Source: Pelotomaculum sp. PtaU1.Bin035
GTDB taxonomy: Bacteria; Bacillota; Desulfotomaculia; Desulfotomaculales; Pelotomaculaceae
DNA: 64,000 nucleotides
Assembly (NCBI GenBank): GCA_002067965.1
Contig: MVRN01000036.1
Coordinates: forward strand, 1-64,000
Direction of reading: 5' to 3'
Below the pieces are notes generated by a model. It worked only from the letters and a program-made list of their open reading frames with translations, ran no database searches and had not been told where the DNA came from. This document shows positions 11,941-31,339 of this stretch, in pieces. Each line of letters starts with the position of its first letter. The first letter of the stretch is position 1. The position numbers and the translations under genes are program-made.

Positions 11941-12180
11941 CTGTATGAGGAAAGGGCGTGGATGTGGGCAAATACAAGAAAAGGCTACTGGCGAACCGCC
12001 CATAGCCCAATCTTGTTAAGAGCCCTATCCAACGAGAGGTTCAAACGTGCCGGATACCTCAGCCTGATGGAATGTTACTCTGCGAAATAATGTGTAAACT
12101 TTGGAAGCGCCGTATACCGAACGGTACGTACGGTGCTGTGGGAGGTCGGCTACTTAATTAATGGGTAGCCTCCTACCCGA
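11941..12180 (+). mobile_element. Group II intron 3' remnant (maturase C-terminus, domains V and VI)
   Basis: 11941-12090 encodes the C-terminus of an intron-encoded protein (WMWANTRKGYWRTAHSPILL to stop). It is followed by a structure resembling domain V at about 12104-12138, where CGCCGTA and TACGGTGC flank a paired ACCG/CGGT stem, and then a domain VI-like stem at 12140-12180 (GGTCGGCTAC with GGGTAGCCTCC). The reverse transcriptase domains and the 5' half are absent, so it cannot move by itself. Confidence 0.65.
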
Positions 12181-12202
12181 TTAATAAGTTGTATCCTTAT
12201 AT

Positions 12203-16279: not shown

Positions 16280-16302
16280 CTACTAAAATTCTAAAACTAA
16301 AT

Positions 16303-16392
16303 AGTTGGCTAGGGGTGCCGTAAGGCTGAGAGAGAATAATCTCAACCCTCTGAACCTGACGCGGGTAATACCGCCGTAGGGAAGCAGAAGCT
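16303..16392 (+). promoter_or_regulatory. TPP riboswitch (THI element)
   Basis: The conserved THI-box blocks occur in order: GGGGTGC, GGCTGAGA, AACCCT with GAACCTGA, and GGGTAATACCG ending in AGGGAA. It lies between a consensus promoter and thiS. A terminator hairpin 37 bases downstream is the likely expression platform, so thiamine pyrophosphate should lower expression of thiS-G-H-E-C. Confidence 0.95.
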
Positions 16393-16428
16393 GTGTGTTG
16401 TTATTTGTACCCGCAGTTTCAAAAAAAT

Positions 16429-24819: not shown

Positions 24820-24849
24820 TTGACACCTTTATGTCCGTTATGCTATTTT
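24820..24849 (+). promoter_or_regulatory. trp operon promoter
   Basis: TTGACA (24820-24825) and TATTTT (24844-24849) are 18 bases apart, and the -10 box is preceded by TGC as in extended -10 promoters. It lies directly ahead of the periodic GAG leader. Confidence 0.7.
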
Positions 24850-24865
24850 AATTCTAGGTTTTAAA

Positions 24866-24913
24866 GAGCAGAGTTAGCTGAGAAGAGTAGAAGATGAGCT
24901 GAGGTGAGTTGCG
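24866..24913 (+). promoter_or_regulatory. TRAP (MtrB) binding site in the trp leader
   Basis: GAG or TAG triplets recur with a period of mostly five bases: 24866, 24871, 24875, 24880, 24885, 24888, 24896, 24901 and 24906, with GAT at 24893 and GCG at 24911 filling two further positions. The 11-subunit TRAP protein binds (G/U)AG repeats spaced by two to three bases when tryptophan is high. TGAGTTGCGGGTT at 24905-24917 can pair with AACCGGTACTCA at 24933-24944 as an antiterminator, so TRAP binding would free the terminator arm. No mtrB lies in the window. Confidence 0.75.
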
Positions 24914-24932
24914 GGTTTACATTTGAGAAATT

Positions 24933-24969
24933 AACCGGTACTCATTTGAGTGCCGGTTTTTGTCTTTTT
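24933..24969 (+). terminator. trp leader attenuator terminator
   Basis: AACCGGTACTC pairs with GAGTGCCGGTT around ATTT (one mismatch), followed by TTTTTGTCTTTTT. It lies before trpE, and its 5' arm is complementary to part of the TRAP site. Confidence 0.8.
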
Positions 24970-24981
24970 AAGGGGGGGGAG

Positions 24982-26445
24982 ATGAATTTGAGCATTCCGA
25001 GCAGGCAGGAATACCTGTTGTTAAGCAAAAAATACGACCTGATCCCGGTTTGCCGTGAGATTAATGCCGATATGGACACGCCCATCAGCATCTTTAAGAA
25101 AATTTCCCCGCGGGGACCGGCCTATCTGCTGGAAAGTGTTGAGGGCGGTGAAAGCCTTGCCCGCTATTCATTTATCGGGTTTGATCCTTTTCTTAATTTT
25201 ACTTCTAAGGGGGAGGAGTCACGGATATCCGGCGGAGGAGGCAGTAAAGTTGTTTCCGGATCGCCTTTGGAAAACCTGGCAAAGCTTATTTCAGGTTTTC
25301 ATGTCTACAATGGGGAAGAATTACCCCGCTTTTTCGGAGGTGCTGTGGGATATCTCGGCTACGGAGCAGTCCGGTTCTTTGAAAGAATTAATATTTCAAG
25401 AAAAAACATTCCCGATTTGCCGGACAGCAACTTTATTTTTGCCGGCACTGTGCTGATTTTTGACCATGTTAAGCATAGTTTGAAAATTGTCATTAACAGC
25501 TTTCCAGGAGAGAATCCGGAAAGTTCATATGATAATGTTGAATACCGGTTTCAGAAGGTTATTGAGTCAATCAATAGGACTGTTGCGCTTGAATACGGCA
25601 ACCCGGGCCACGGGGCCTTCGCTCCTGTTGAAACAAATATGACCAGGGAAAATTTTATCAAGCAGGTTGAACGGGCCAAGGAGTACATTAAGGCGGGAGA
25701 TATCCTTCAAGTGGTTCTGTCGCAGCGTTTCCGGACACCTTTCCAGGGAGAACCGTTTAATGTTTACCGGAGATTGAGGGCGCTAAACCCTTCACCCTAT
25801 CTTTATTACCTTGACTTCGGCACAGCTCAAGTGGTAGGTTCTTCGCCCGAGATGCTGGTAAGGGTTGTCGGCGATACTGCCGAAACCTGCCCCATAGCCG
25901 GTACCCGGCCCCGCGGCAAAAATTTGGAAGCAGACAGGCGTATGGCGGAAGAGTTGTTGGAAGACGCCAAGGAAAGGGCTGAGCACCTGATGTTGGTGGA
26001 TCTCGGCCGTAATGATCTGGGAAAAGTTTGTGAGCCGGGCAGCATAAAAGTGAGCCGTTTTATGGAAATCGAAAGATTTTCTCATGTTATGCACTTGGTT
26101 TCAAATGTTAAGGGCCGGATGTCTTCGGGAAGGGACAGTTCCGATGCCCTGCGGGCCTGTTTCCCGGCCGGAACAGTCACGGGAGCCCCAAAGGTGCGCG
26201 CTATGGAGATTATTGATGAATTGGAGCCTGACGGAAGAGGCGTTTACGCCGGTGCTATCGGATATTTTGGATTTACTGGGAACCTGGATACCGCGATAGC
26301 AATCAGGACTGTGATAATACGGGAAGGCAATGCTTATGTTCAGGCCGGGGCGGGGATAGTGGCCGACTCCGACCCTGAAAGGGAATATGAGGAAACGATA
26401 AACAAGGCCCGCGCGCTGTTAAATACCATTGGGGAGGCTGGGTAG
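24982..26445 (+). CDS. trpE: Anthranilate synthase component I
   Basis: A 487-residue TrpE that makes anthranilate from chorismate with TrpG. Blocks include an N-terminal Trp-binding [14 protein letters not shown], the PIAGTRPRG segment, [14 protein letters not shown] and [17 protein letters not shown] 24982 abuts a run of G; TTG 24988 is the alternative start with better spacing. It lies directly after the leader attenuator and two bases before trpG. First gene of the trp operon. Confidence 0.93.
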
Positions 26446-26447
26446 AA

Positions 26448-27026
26448 TTGGTATTAATGATCGATAATTATGACTCGTTTACTTATAACCTTGTGCAGTA
26501 TCTGGGTGAACTGGGTGAGGATGTGCGGGTTTTTCGCAATGATCAGATTACTTGTGATGAAATCGAAAAGATGGATCCCTCGCACATTATCATCTCCCCG
26601 GGCCCCTGTTCCCCCAATGAGGCCGGTGTATCTCTGTCTGTTATTGAACGCTTTGCAGGTATTGTTCCTATTTTAGGGGTATGCCTGGGGCACCAGGCCA
26701 TCGGTCATGCCTTTGGAGGCAAGGTTGTCCGGGCGGACCGGCTGATGCACGGCAAAACCTCACCTATCCACCACTGTGACGGTGGTTCGGTTTTCCACGA
26801 CATACCATCACCTTTTATTGCTACCAGGTACCATTCACTGATTGTTGACAGGGAAAGCTTGCCGGAATGTCTTGAGCTTACTGCATGGACTGAAGAAGGT
26901 GAGGTTATGGGAATTCGCCACCGGAAATATGCTGTGGAAGGGGTCCAGTTTCATCCCGAATCAATCCTAACTGAACATGGCCACAAAATACTGCATAATT
27001 TTTTGACACGTAATGGAGTTGTATAA
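26448..27026 (+). CDS. trpG: Anthranilate synthase component II (glutamine amidotransferase)
   Basis: A 192-residue class I amidotransferase supplying ammonia to TrpE. The nucleophile is C79 in GVCLGHQ and the His/Glu pair is in VQFHPES. Start TTG 26448 gives [11 protein letters not shown], the usual N-terminus. It lies two bases after trpE. Confidence 0.93.
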
Positions 27027-27070: not shown

Positions 27071-27093
27071 TAGCTGAGGGGAGTAGAGAACAG
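27071..27093 (+). promoter_or_regulatory. Second TRAP-like repeat cluster over the trpD ribosome binding site
   Basis: TAG, GAG, GAG, GAG and CAG occur at 27071, 27076, 27081, 27086 and 27091, exactly five bases apart, covering the trpD Shine-Dalgarno region. In Bacillus, TRAP blocks trpG, trpP and ycbK translation by such overlap. Only four to five repeats are seen here, fewer than TRAP usually uses, and purine-rich Shine-Dalgarno sequence favours chance hits. Confidence 0.35.
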
Positions 27094-28130
27094 TGATGAA
27101 AGAAGCGATCAAAAAGGTAGTAGCCGGCAAGCATCTGAGTGAGGGAGATGCCAGTGCGGTTATGGAGCAAATTATGGATGGGAAAGCCAGCCCCGCTCAG
27201 ATTGCTTCACTCCTTACCGCAATGCATTTAAAAGGTGAAACTGTTGATGAAATAACCGGTTTTGCCAGGGTGATGAGACAGAAATCCACCCTGGTGAATT
27301 CAACCCATCCGTTGCTGGTGGATACCTGCGGCACTGGCGGAGACGGGGCCGGCACTATAAATATTTCAACTACTGCCGCGTTTGTGGTGGCCGGCGCGGG
27401 GTTACCGGTGGCCAAACACGGCAACCGTTCGGTTTCCAGTAAATGCGGCAGCGCTGACGTATTGGAAGAATTGGGAGTAGCGGTTGACCTTGAACGGGAA
27501 GCGATGGAAGATTGTTTGGACCAGGTGGGGATGGCCTTTCTTTTTGCGCCGTTGCTGCACAAGTCGATGGGGCATGCTGCGGTGCCCCGGCGTGAAATTG
27601 GCATTCGTACTGTTTTTAATATCCTTGGCCCTTTGACCAACCCAGCGGGAGCTAAAGCCCAGGTACTGGGTGTTTATAGCTCTTCATTGACAGAGACTTT
27701 GGCTAAAGTGCTTGCCCGCCTCGGATCGTCACGGGCTTTTGTGGTCCACGGCGCGGGTGGCCTTGATGAAATTTCCCTGGCAGGCGTTTCTGTCTTGTGT
27801 GAAGTAAAAGATGGATCGGTTCGCAAGGGGACGCTTGATCCGGCCAAATTTGGTTTTGCCCTTGCCCCTATTAGTACCCTGGCGGGAGGTTCACCAAAAG
27901 AGAATGCGGCTATTACCCGTTTGATCCTGGAGGGTGAAAAGGGTCCCCGGCGCGACGCTGTTATTCTGAACGCCGCTCTGGGGCTGGTTGCCGGAGGCAA
28001 GGCCCATGGGATAAATGAAGGGATAAGTGCCGCCGCGGCTAGCATAGATTCAGGTTCCGCCCTGGCAAAGCTCAATGAGTTGGTGGATTTTACCCGGCGT
28101 CACGCGCCGAAAAAGGCGGCTGTTCAATGA
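27093..28130 (+). CDS. trpD: Anthranilate phosphoribosyltransferase
   Basis: A 345-residue enzyme that adds PRPP to anthranilate. The PRPP loop is DTCGTGGDGAGT, and KHGNRSVSSKCGSADVLE is the anthranilate-site block. Start GTG 27093 or ATG 27096 (GTG ATG) lies behind GAGGGGAG. It overlaps trpC by four bases (ATGA). The gap of 66 bases after trpG is AT-rich and then carries the TRAP-like repeats. Confidence 0.92.
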   Translation: MMKEAIKKVVAGKHLSEGDASAVMEQIMDGKASPAQIASLLTAMHLKGETVDEITGFARVMRQKSTLVNSTHPLLVDTCGTGGDGAGTINISTTAAFVVAGAGLPVAKHGNRSVSSKCGSADVLEELGVAVDLEREAMEDCLDQVGMAFLFAPLLHKSMGHAAVPRREIGIRTVFNILGPLTNPAGAKAQVLGVYSSSLTETLAKVLARLGSSRAFVVHGAGGLDEISLAGVSVLCEVKDGSVRKGTLDPAKFGFALAPISTLAGGSPKENAAITRLILEGEKGPRRDAVILNAALGLVAGGKAHGINEGISAAAASIDSGSALAKLNELVDFTRRHAPKKAAVQ

Positions 28131-28936
28131 TTTTATCGAAAATTATTGCCAACAAGATGCTGGAGTTGTCAATACAAAAGGAAAAAGTGCCGCAGGAAGC
28201 ACTGGAATCTGAAATACCGGGTCTTTCCCCGCCTCGCCCGCTGGGCCTTGCTTTGCGCTTGCCGGGGCAAGTTGCGATAATAGCCGAGGCTAAAAAAGCC
28301 TCACCGTCGAAAGGTATTATTTGCCATGAGTATGAACCTGAACAGCTTGCCCGGACATATGAGCTTGGTGGAGCTGCCGCTGTATCTGTGTTGACCGAAG
28401 AAAAGTTTTTTCTTGGGCATCCATCCCACCTTACCGGAGTGAAAAACGTAACTAACCTTCCTGTTTTGAGAAAAGACTTTATCATTGATCCATATCAGAT
28501 TTATCAATCCCGCGTTTTGGGCGCGGACGCGATTCTCCTGATCGCTTCGGCTCTTACAAGGGAGCAACTGGTTGAGTTCCAGAAACTGGCCGCCGGGCTG
28601 GGGTTGTCCTGCCTGGTGGAGGTGCATACGGAACCTGAGCTAATTTCTGTCCTTTCGGCCGGTGCAACTATAATTGGCATCAATAACCGCGACCTCCGGA
28701 CTTTTAATACTGACATTAACACTACTTTTAACCTGAGAGGCCTGATCAAGGACGACCGGATCACTGTTGTTTCTGAAAGTGGTATCAAAAGCCGCCAGGA
28801 CATATTAAAGCTGCGGGAAAATGGGGTTCACGCCGCGCTGGTGGGCGAAGCCCTGGTTGGATATAAGGATCCTGGCGCAGCCCTGAATGAACTAAGAGCG
28901 ACGGCTGCTAAGCGTGAAAAAGGAGGTTCTTTGTAA
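28127..28936 (+). CDS. trpC: Indole-3-glycerol phosphate synthase
   Basis: A 269-residue TIM-barrel enzyme; [30 protein letters not shown] and VSESGIKS are the catalytic and phosphate-binding blocks. It overlaps trpD by ATGA, and trpB follows two bases after its stop. The trpF that usually lies between trpC and trpB is absent, and TrpC is not fused to it (length is that of TrpC alone). Confidence 0.93.
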
Positions 28937-28938
28937 GA

Positions 28939-30162
28939 ATGAAAGACTTATCGGATATAACAGGCAAGGGTACTTCCATGCCGGATGAAAGGGGGTATTT
29001 CGGTTCTTACGGGGGCCGTTTTATACCGGAGGTATTAATGCCGGCGCTGGAAGATTTGGAAGAAGCTTACCGGTTTGCCAGGGATGACCCGGAATTTTAC
29101 GAGGAACTGGGGAATTATCTTAAACATTATGTGGGCCGTCCTTCTCCCCTCTATTTTGCCGAAGGTCTGACCAGGCATTGCGGTGGCGGAAGGATATATC
29201 TTAAAAGAGAGGATTTAAACCACACTGGCGCCCACAAAATAAATAACACAATCGGCCAGATTCTCCTTGCCCGCCGTATGGGCAAGAAAAGAGTAATAGC
29301 CGAAACAGGCGCCGGCCAGCACGGGGTGGCTACGGCTACGGCTGCGGCTTTGTTCGGTTTTGAATGTGCAATATATATGGGTGAAGAAGATATCGTCCGT
29401 CAAAGCCCCAACGTTTTTCGAATGCGCCTGTTGGGTGCGGAAGTTATTCCGGTAACAAGCGGGAGCAAGACATTGAAGGACGCGATGAACGAAACCATCC
29501 GGGATTGGGTGACAAATGTGCGGGATACTTATTACCTGATTGGCTCGGTGGCCGGCCCGCACCCCTACCCGCAGATGGTCAGGGATTTCCAATCTGTTAT
29601 TGGAGAGGAAGCAAAGCGGCAGGTGATTGAGCATGCCGGACGGTTGCCTGATTACATCCTGGCCTGCGTCGGCGGCGGGAGCAATGCGATGGGCATATTC
29701 TATCCCTTCCTGGCTGACCATGAGGTAAAGCTGATAGGGGTGGAAGCTGCAGGGCGCGGGTTAGATACTGGAGAGCACTCCGCTACCCTTGGCCGGGGCA
29801 GCCCCGGAGTGCTGCACGGGTCATTAAGCTATATTTTGCAGAGTGAAGACGGCCAGATCAATATAGCTCATTCGATTGCTGCCGGACTTGATTATCCCGG
29901 TGTTGGTCCGGAGCACGCATACCTCAAGGACTCTGGACGGGTAAAATATACTTCGGTTACTGATCCGGAAGCCTTGGCAGCTTTTCAGTTGCTTTGCCGT
30001 ACTGACGGGATCATTCCGGCACTTGAAAGTTCGCATGCCCTGGCTGAAGCCATCAAGCTGGCGCCGGCTCTTTCAACTGAAAGAATAATAGTGGTTAATC
30101 TCTCCGGGCGGGGAGACAAAGATATACCCGCGGTAGCGGGCGAACCGGGGGTGAATATATGA
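28939..30162 (+). CDS. trpB: Tryptophan synthase beta chain
   Basis: A 407-residue PLP enzyme; the PLP lysine lies in TGAHKINN, the phosphate cup is GGGSNAMG, and [14 protein letters not shown] marks the N-terminus. It is the TrpB1 type with a 13-residue N-terminal extension before [12 protein letters not shown] follows AAAAGGAGG. It overlaps trpA by four bases. Confidence 0.95.
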
Positions 30163-30962
30163 ACAACCGCAGCTTGATTGAAGAGTGCTTAAATAAACTA
30201 CGGTTTGCCGGTAAGAAGGGTTTGATTACATATATTACAGCCGGGGATCCCGACCTGTCCGGCACGGTCGATCTGGCGCTTCGGATGGATGCGGCCGGCG
30301 CGGATATAATTGAATTGGGTGTACCGTTTTCCGATCCCCTGGCAGACGGGTCGGTGATCCAGCAGGCTTCCGGCCGGGCGTTGGCAGCCGGGACGACATT
30401 AGCCAAAATCTTGGAGGCAGTAATAGAGATCAAAAGAAATTGCCGGGCGCCCTTGATTTTGATGGGTTATTACAATCCTTTTTTGCAATACGGCCTTGAG
30501 CGGCTTACAGCTAAAGCGTCTTCAGCAGGGATAAGCGGCCTGATTGTGCCTGACTTGCCTTTGGAAGAATCTGTTCCATTGATGAGACTGGCCTCAAAGG
30601 CAGGGTTGGACATAGTTCCTCTTGTGTCACCCGTAACTACCGACCGTAGAATCAAAGGTATTGCTGCAAAGGCGCAGGGTTTTGTTTATTGTGTATCTGT
30701 TACGGGGGTTACCGGCGTCAGGAAGGAAATAGGCACAGAAATAGAGAGCTTTACCAATAGAGTTCGCCATTATACATCACTGCCGCTGGCCATAGGCTTT
30801 GGCATAGCTGACCCGGATCAGGCCGCCCGTATGTCAAGATACTGCGATGCGGTTGTTGTGGGAAGCGCGATTGTAAAAATAATCGCCGACAACGGAAATA
30901 CCCGTTCTGCCGGGCCGGCTGTAGAGCGCTTGACGAGGAATTTAAAAGCGGCGCTGGATTAA
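30159..30962 (+). CDS. trpA: Tryptophan synthase alpha chain
   Basis: A 267-residue TIM-barrel subunit that cleaves indole-glycerol phosphate. Catalytic Glu is in [11 protein letters not shown] and catalytic Asp in the LIVPDLP segment; GYYNP and GFGI are family blocks. ATG overlaps the trpB stop by four bases. A perfect hairpin follows at 30971. Confidence 0.95.
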
Positions 30963-31001: not shown

Positions 31002-31339
31002 AGGAAATACTGCAGCGGTGTTATTAGAATCTATATCTGTAGGCAGAAATTCTGTTGCGGTAATGAGATCAATGTGCTAGTATAAAAAATATTTCGTAGT
31101 ACAGTTTTTATGGTAGGAAGGTTTTTCTCTGGCGAACATATCGCAGTGGGTGCAAAGAAGTACGGTAGGACGGTAGAGGAGGCGGTAAGAAATGCTCTTA
31201 TGGTCTGGTTAAGCATTCCTTTCCGGAAGTGCTTTATCTTTTTATATTTGGGTCATTTATAACTAAATTATGGAGATTATTATGTAGAAGTGGAATATTT
31301 AGAAAAACATTAGGAGAGGTATTAAGAGGAGGCATATAA
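31002..31339. other. Intergenic region between trpA and aroF
   Basis: The region is AT-rich and has no strong gene. One 50-codon frame (ATG 31110 to TAA 31260-31262) reads VGRFFSGEHIAVGAKKYGRT and then turns hydrophobic; it looks protein-like but has no ribosome binding site and may be a gene relic. GTATAAAAA at about 31078-31087 could be a -10 region, without a clear -35. Confidence 0.3.

Follow-up and report, generated by a model that had tools for sequence, protein, structure and literature searches.

The trp operon and its leader

The window (the whole stretch of 64,000 nucleotides analysed) contains a tryptophan operon with the gene order chorismate mutase (aroH type), trpE, amidotransferase, trpD, trpC, trpB, trpA, DAHP synthase and prephenate dehydrogenase, and a leader between a promoter-like site and trpE (Table 1). 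No trpF stands between trpC and trpB (28127-30162) or elsewhere in the operon; a PRAI-family frame was found on a different contig (C118, locus L047). Elsewhere in the window, a TPP riboswitch (16301-16399) and a group II intron domain (12105-12181) both score above the Rfam gathering scores.

Table 1. Coordinates of the trp leader and operon in the window
Feature	Position	Strand	Details
Promoter-like site	24820-24849	+	TTGACA / 18-nt spacer / TATTTT with TG extension; 10 of 12 matches
TRAP-binding array (predicted)	24866-24913	+	8 (G/U)AG triplets plus near-cognate AAG and GCG; steps of 4-6 nt
Canonical triplets	GAG 24866, GAG 24871, UAG 24875, GAG 24880, GAG 24885, GAG 24896, GAG 24901, GAG 24906	+	
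Near-cognate triplets in register	AAG 24891, GCG 24911	+	
Antiterminator, 5' strand	24905-24917	+	overlaps the last GAG repeat and GCG
Antiterminator, 3' strand (= terminator 5' arm)	24933-24944	+	
Intrinsic terminator	24933-24968	+	11-bp stem 24933-24958, loop ATTT, U-rich tail
trpE (anthranilate synthase component I)	24982-26445	+	NCBIfam TIGR00564, 561.6 bits (cut-off 517.7)
Glutamine amidotransferase (trpG by position, directly 3' of trpE)	26448-27026	+	Pfam GATase
Candidate second TRAP site over the trpD ribosome-binding site	27071-27088	+	run of 4 (G/U)AG, every step exactly 5 nt
trpD	27093-28130	+	Pfam Glycos_transf_3 and N-terminal domain
trpC, trpB, trpA	28127-30962	+	

Promoter-like sites number two in the region (0.5 expected), and we infer a transcription start near 24856. 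The triplets of the array follow one another in steps of 5, 4, 5, 5, 6, 5, 5, 5 and 5 nt; where about 11 (G/U)AG (NAG) triplets spaced by 2-3 nt would be expected of such an array, the leader has 8 canonical triplets plus AAG and GCG, with one 1-nt spacer. A UAG at 24888 and a lone GAG at 24925 lie outside the register. Among the (G/U)AG chains on both strands of the 64-kb window, the array ranks first (score 7.2; runners-up 4.0 and 3.0), and its score is equalled in none of 1000 dinucleotide shuffles of the leader. The first-pass annotation had described GAG/TAG triplets with five-base periodicity: the array itself stands, but a strict period does not, since one step is of 4 nt and one of 6 nt, and two of the ten positions depart from (G/U)AG. 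A weak (G/U)AG cluster upstream of the DAHP synthase gene in the window (31300-31328) was judged to be due to chance.

The terminator stem (24933-24958, followed by a U tract) has a folding energy of -18.2 kcal/mol (z -7.7 relative to shuffles), which bears out the earlier description of a strong competing terminator. The antiterminator was recovered independently by duplex folding, with coordinates identical to those proposed at first reading (24905-24917 with 24933-24944), and the minimum-energy fold of an RNA that stops at 24944 includes it. The two hairpins have one strand in common and are thus mutually exclusive; the antiterminator overlaps the last repeats, while the terminator lies between the array and trpE. 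Relative to shuffles, the antiterminator fold is not unusually stable (z -0.18), and the case for it, as judged from the sequences, is comparative and not one of fold stability. At equilibrium the full leader prefers the terminator fold, so that read-through would depend on co-transcriptional folding.

Conservation of the leader and of TRAP in the family

Orthologues of trpE in ten family genomes (61-75% identity) are preceded by a TTGAC promoter, an array, an antiterminator and a near-identical terminator, and TTGAC occurs at the corresponding place in all 11 leaders (the window and its ten relatives). In seven of these leaders, that of the window among them, none of 1000 shuffles equals the array score; in the remaining four (L029, L030, L032 and L038), 19-104 of 1000 do. 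The antiterminator lies at or just 3' of the last repeats in nearly all 11 leaders, and its 5' strand includes at least one (G/U)AG in 10 of them. The terminator energies range from -15.6 to -21.1 kcal/mol. The terminator stem hardly varies between the leaders, and its covariation is accordingly modest: two pairs show compensatory changes, 94% of cells are paired, and 69 of 500 shuffles score as well.

The TRAP gene mtrB is present in the same assembly, on a contig other than that of the window (G000:C84:3513-3710). The search of the genome found it with 129.8 bits, and its product scores 130.5 bits against Pfam PF02081 (cut-off 21.3) and 133.6 bits against the NCBIfam equivalog NF009724 (cut-off 117), so the absence of mtrB, named beforehand as grounds for rejecting TRAP control, does not apply. 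By sequence, the protein matches solved TRAP structures and is 59% identical to B. subtilis TRAP, with conservation of SEKLD and AIKxRG (here AIKIRG). The RNA-contacting residues of TRAP are K37, K56 and R58 in B. subtilis numbering, and the equivalent Lys, Lys and Arg are present in the alignment. The assembly is a draft with 3.3% estimated contamination, and the family-wide presence of mtrB (24 of 25 genomes) is therefore the stronger evidence. Bacillus mtrB adjoins folE, whereas mtrB in this genome lies beside dnaE; across the family, a dnaE motif is nearby in most mtrB loci and pfkA in several, and none of the folE motifs tested was found near them. No mtrB was found in viral contigs. In the four genomes of genus g2 (G001-G004), mtrB is present and no trpE was detected; in one of them, G003, an array and terminator lie upstream of a TrpP-type transporter gene (L094). 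A search of the window's own genome for TrpP with an 88-aa query, a weak test, found no homologue.

No homologue of anti-TRAP (rtpA) was found with a query checked against 2bx9, matches at E<=0.1 being examined; with regard to the window's own genome, this is a difference from B. subtilis. The rtpA-like matches at that threshold lie inside frames of ~380 aa and were taken as DnaJ zinc fingers; the one candidate of 63 aa, in G004, falls within a transposase ORF. Since no anti-TRAP was found, free tryptophan is probably the only signal that the switch reads. TRAP residue 60, Glu in B. subtilis, has been linked to termination (PMC3913778). It is Arg or Lys in the 23 family TRAPs read, but Lys occurs in a solved TRAP too, and the residue is uninformative as a mechanistic clue.

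Three family genomes carry a divergent trpE (42-43% identity) with no leader of the window type directly upstream. It is preceded instead by an Rfam T-box in two of them (L039 and L040; 102 and 112 bits), with a specifier that reads as UGG, and by a similar sequence in the third. At L040 (G007:C94, reverse strand), an array (1069) and a TRAP-type terminator (1103-1127) directly precede the T-box (1144-1389) and trpE (1501). Such a leader, in this one draft genome, could possibly read both free tryptophan and tRNA charging.

Proposed mechanism and alternative readings

The region 24856-24968 very probably acts as a transcription attenuator through which TRAP controls the trpE-G-D-C-B-A operon. 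The proposal of a TRAP-type attenuator before trpE made at first reading is strengthened: mtrB is in the genome, the layout is kept in ten relatives, and leaders and arrays of this kind occur almost only in genomes with TRAP (see below). The likeness to the Bacillus trp leader plan also holds, as the anatomy of array, antiterminator and terminator fits the Bacillus model.

From the array, the mutually exclusive hairpins, the promoter-like site, the TRAP gene and the conservation in relatives, all seen directly, we infer the following response to tryptophan. When tryptophan is plentiful, the tryptophan-loaded TRAP ring would wrap the (G/U)AG array as the RNA emerges. With the last repeats held by TRAP, 24905-24917 could not pair with 24933-24944, the terminator would form, and transcription would stop before trpE. 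When tryptophan is scarce, TRAP would be empty, the antiterminator would form first, and RNA polymerase would read through into the operon. Translation within the operon may also be controlled, through a second and weaker TRAP site that covers the ribosome-binding site of trpD. In the 137 kb around the trp operons of the relatives and the window, every run of at least four triplets with exact 5-nt steps lies either at a TRAP-type leader or at the trpG-trpD junction (in the window and, at the same position, in L032, L033 and L038). The four triplets would probably bind weakly, and the site is a candidate only.

Control by a ribosome translating a leader peptide that contains Trp codons, the mechanism of E. 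coli trp, would share the layout of promoter, leader, terminator and trpE, but none of the frames of 24856-24931 contains TGG, a plausible leader ORF is lacking, and the (G/U)AG array would be left without a role; we regard this as extremely improbable. The same holds for a tRNA-sensing Trp T-box, for which the divergent trpE of three related genomes, preceded by a T-box in two and by a similar sequence in the third, sets a precedent: a covariance search finds no RF00230 match in the window, the region before trpE included, and the leader is too short. Ten T-boxes were detected in the window's own genome, none of them on the window's contig, and by our reading of the downstream frames none precedes an evident trp gene. 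A DAHP-synthase-like gene in this genome follows a T-box-like leader (L055, G000:C52) that scores 89 bits, just below the gathering score. The imperfect array, and a terminator strong enough to work alone, would also fit a constitutive terminator beside a chance purine-rich repeat, with TRAP playing no part; however, the array and antiterminator are kept across genera and co-occur almost exclusively with TRAP, which makes this very improbable.

The remaining alternative concerns only the last step, and is compatible with a TRAP attenuator: TRAP might act mainly by directly provoking termination by RNA polymerase, as has been proposed for B. subtilis, and not by blocking the antiterminator. The Bacillus attenuators are reported to be poor intrinsic terminators (-12.6 kcal/mol for B. 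subtilis), and TRAP itself to be able to provoke termination, TRAP-dependent termination having been shown without the attenuator (PMC3913778). The leader in the window has an AU-rich stretch 3' of the array, which counts in favour of direct action. Against it, the antiterminator is conserved and the terminator of the window is a good intrinsic one (-18.2 versus the quoted -12.6 kcal/mol), as are those of the 11 leaders together, which makes control by simple refolding more plausible, the energies being from different programs. We consider direct provocation unlikely as the main mode, and the strong terminators offer a natural test of RNA refolding versus action on RNA polymerase.

The mechanism of the TRAP attenuator proposed here is already known. 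The closest known system is the B. subtilis trp attenuator (Rfam RF02370, Trp_leader_2), in which the array likewise overlaps an antiterminator, a terminator ahead of trpE competes with that antiterminator, and the genome carries the TRAP gene. The window differs in that its array falls short of the 11 B. subtilis repeats in length and in perfection, its terminator is stronger than the published one (by energies from different programs), the amidotransferase gene is inside the operon, and no obvious hairpin covers the trpE Shine-Dalgarno. RF02370 matches a Bacillus-like trpE leader (L125, 127.6 bits), whereas the window leader gives no match at the gathering score or at E<=5. The leader thus belongs to a clade outside the coverage of Rfam's Bacillus model, and this leader class could be added to Rfam. 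The candidate trpD site resembles the translational TRAP sites over the starts of trpG, trpP and ycbK in B. subtilis (PMC11255114) in having (G/U)AG triplets over a ribosome-binding site, but its target is trpD inside the operon and it has only four canonical triplets. Trp T-box leaders also control trpE by tryptophan status through termination, but sense uncharged tRNA; none is present at the window, and in G007 (L040) the two types stand in series.

To our knowledge, TRAP has been studied experimentally almost entirely in Bacillus. No description of TRAP leaders in this clade was found among open-access texts, though an earlier mention in comparative reviews is possible; the member, the breadth and the combination of TRAP and T-box in cis appear to be new. 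The whole system, protein and RNA target, appears in anaerobic Bacillota, which predicts a wider regulon. Because the relatives that keep the operon have the same switch, the comparison suggests that TRAP control of tryptophan genes is far wider than the Bacillus examples.

TRAP-associated arrays across the Bacillota

The association was surveyed in 398 genomes, assigned to the Bacillota on the basis of their proteins, 200 with TRAP and 198 without. Arrays of six units occur in 101 of the 200 genomes with TRAP and in 8 of the 198 without (p 4e-28, by statistics that ignore kinship), though the count includes some simple tandem repeats (e.g. in G129 and G421). A covariance model built from the 11 leaders (R1) matches 56 of 199 genomes with TRAP (own genome excluded) and 1 of 198 without (Fisher p 1e-17, again ignoring kinship), the sole match without TRAP having an E value of 9.9e-4. 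Many families are represented in the association, and the R1 matches lie mostly upstream of trpE, DAHP-synthase or transporter genes. In a pattern scan of named genomes, many of the matches listed are simple tandem repeats.

The genes directly 3' of arrays include trpE, trpD (L133) and a TrpB-like PLP enzyme (L134 and similar loci). Arrays also lie directly upstream of trpB (L101 and L103, by sequence), the TrpP transporter (PF17099; L094, L148 and L154), DAHP synthase (L132; by sequence L282, L286, L308 and L310) and indolepyruvate oxidoreductase alpha (L137, partial sequence, TIGR03336 being the best family). The binding proteins encoded in this position are of the DctP type (L285) and TrpX-like (L296, scoring under the TrpX cut-off). 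A methyltransferase-like gene whose start is overlapped by arrays in Paenibacillus, Cohnella, Thermobacillus and two further genomes (L127, L128, L156, L174, L182, L183, L187 and L221) is a candidate new TRAP target.

A broader reading of these data is tentative, and we give it somewhat short of an even chance: in many Bacillota other than Bacillus, TRAP may be a broad tryptophan regulator that acts mostly via strong intrinsic terminators. Its regulon would comprise trpE, the internal trpD site, trpB or TrpB-like genes, DAHP synthase, indolepyruvate oxidoreductase and transporters of the TrpP, TrpX-like and DctP types. One lineage would combine TRAP control in cis with a Trp T-box, a single leader there reading free tryptophan and uncharged tRNA without anti-TRAP.

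Two further loci carry TRAP leaders in other settings. In G013, where no trpE was found, a TRAP leader precedes an apparent trpE remnant, followed directly by a DAHP synthase gene (L100, G013:C49). In G006, a TRAP leader of the trp type precedes ferredoxin-like and aldehyde ferredoxin oxidoreductase genes (L097, G006:C128), and is either an unexpected target or a transplanted leader.
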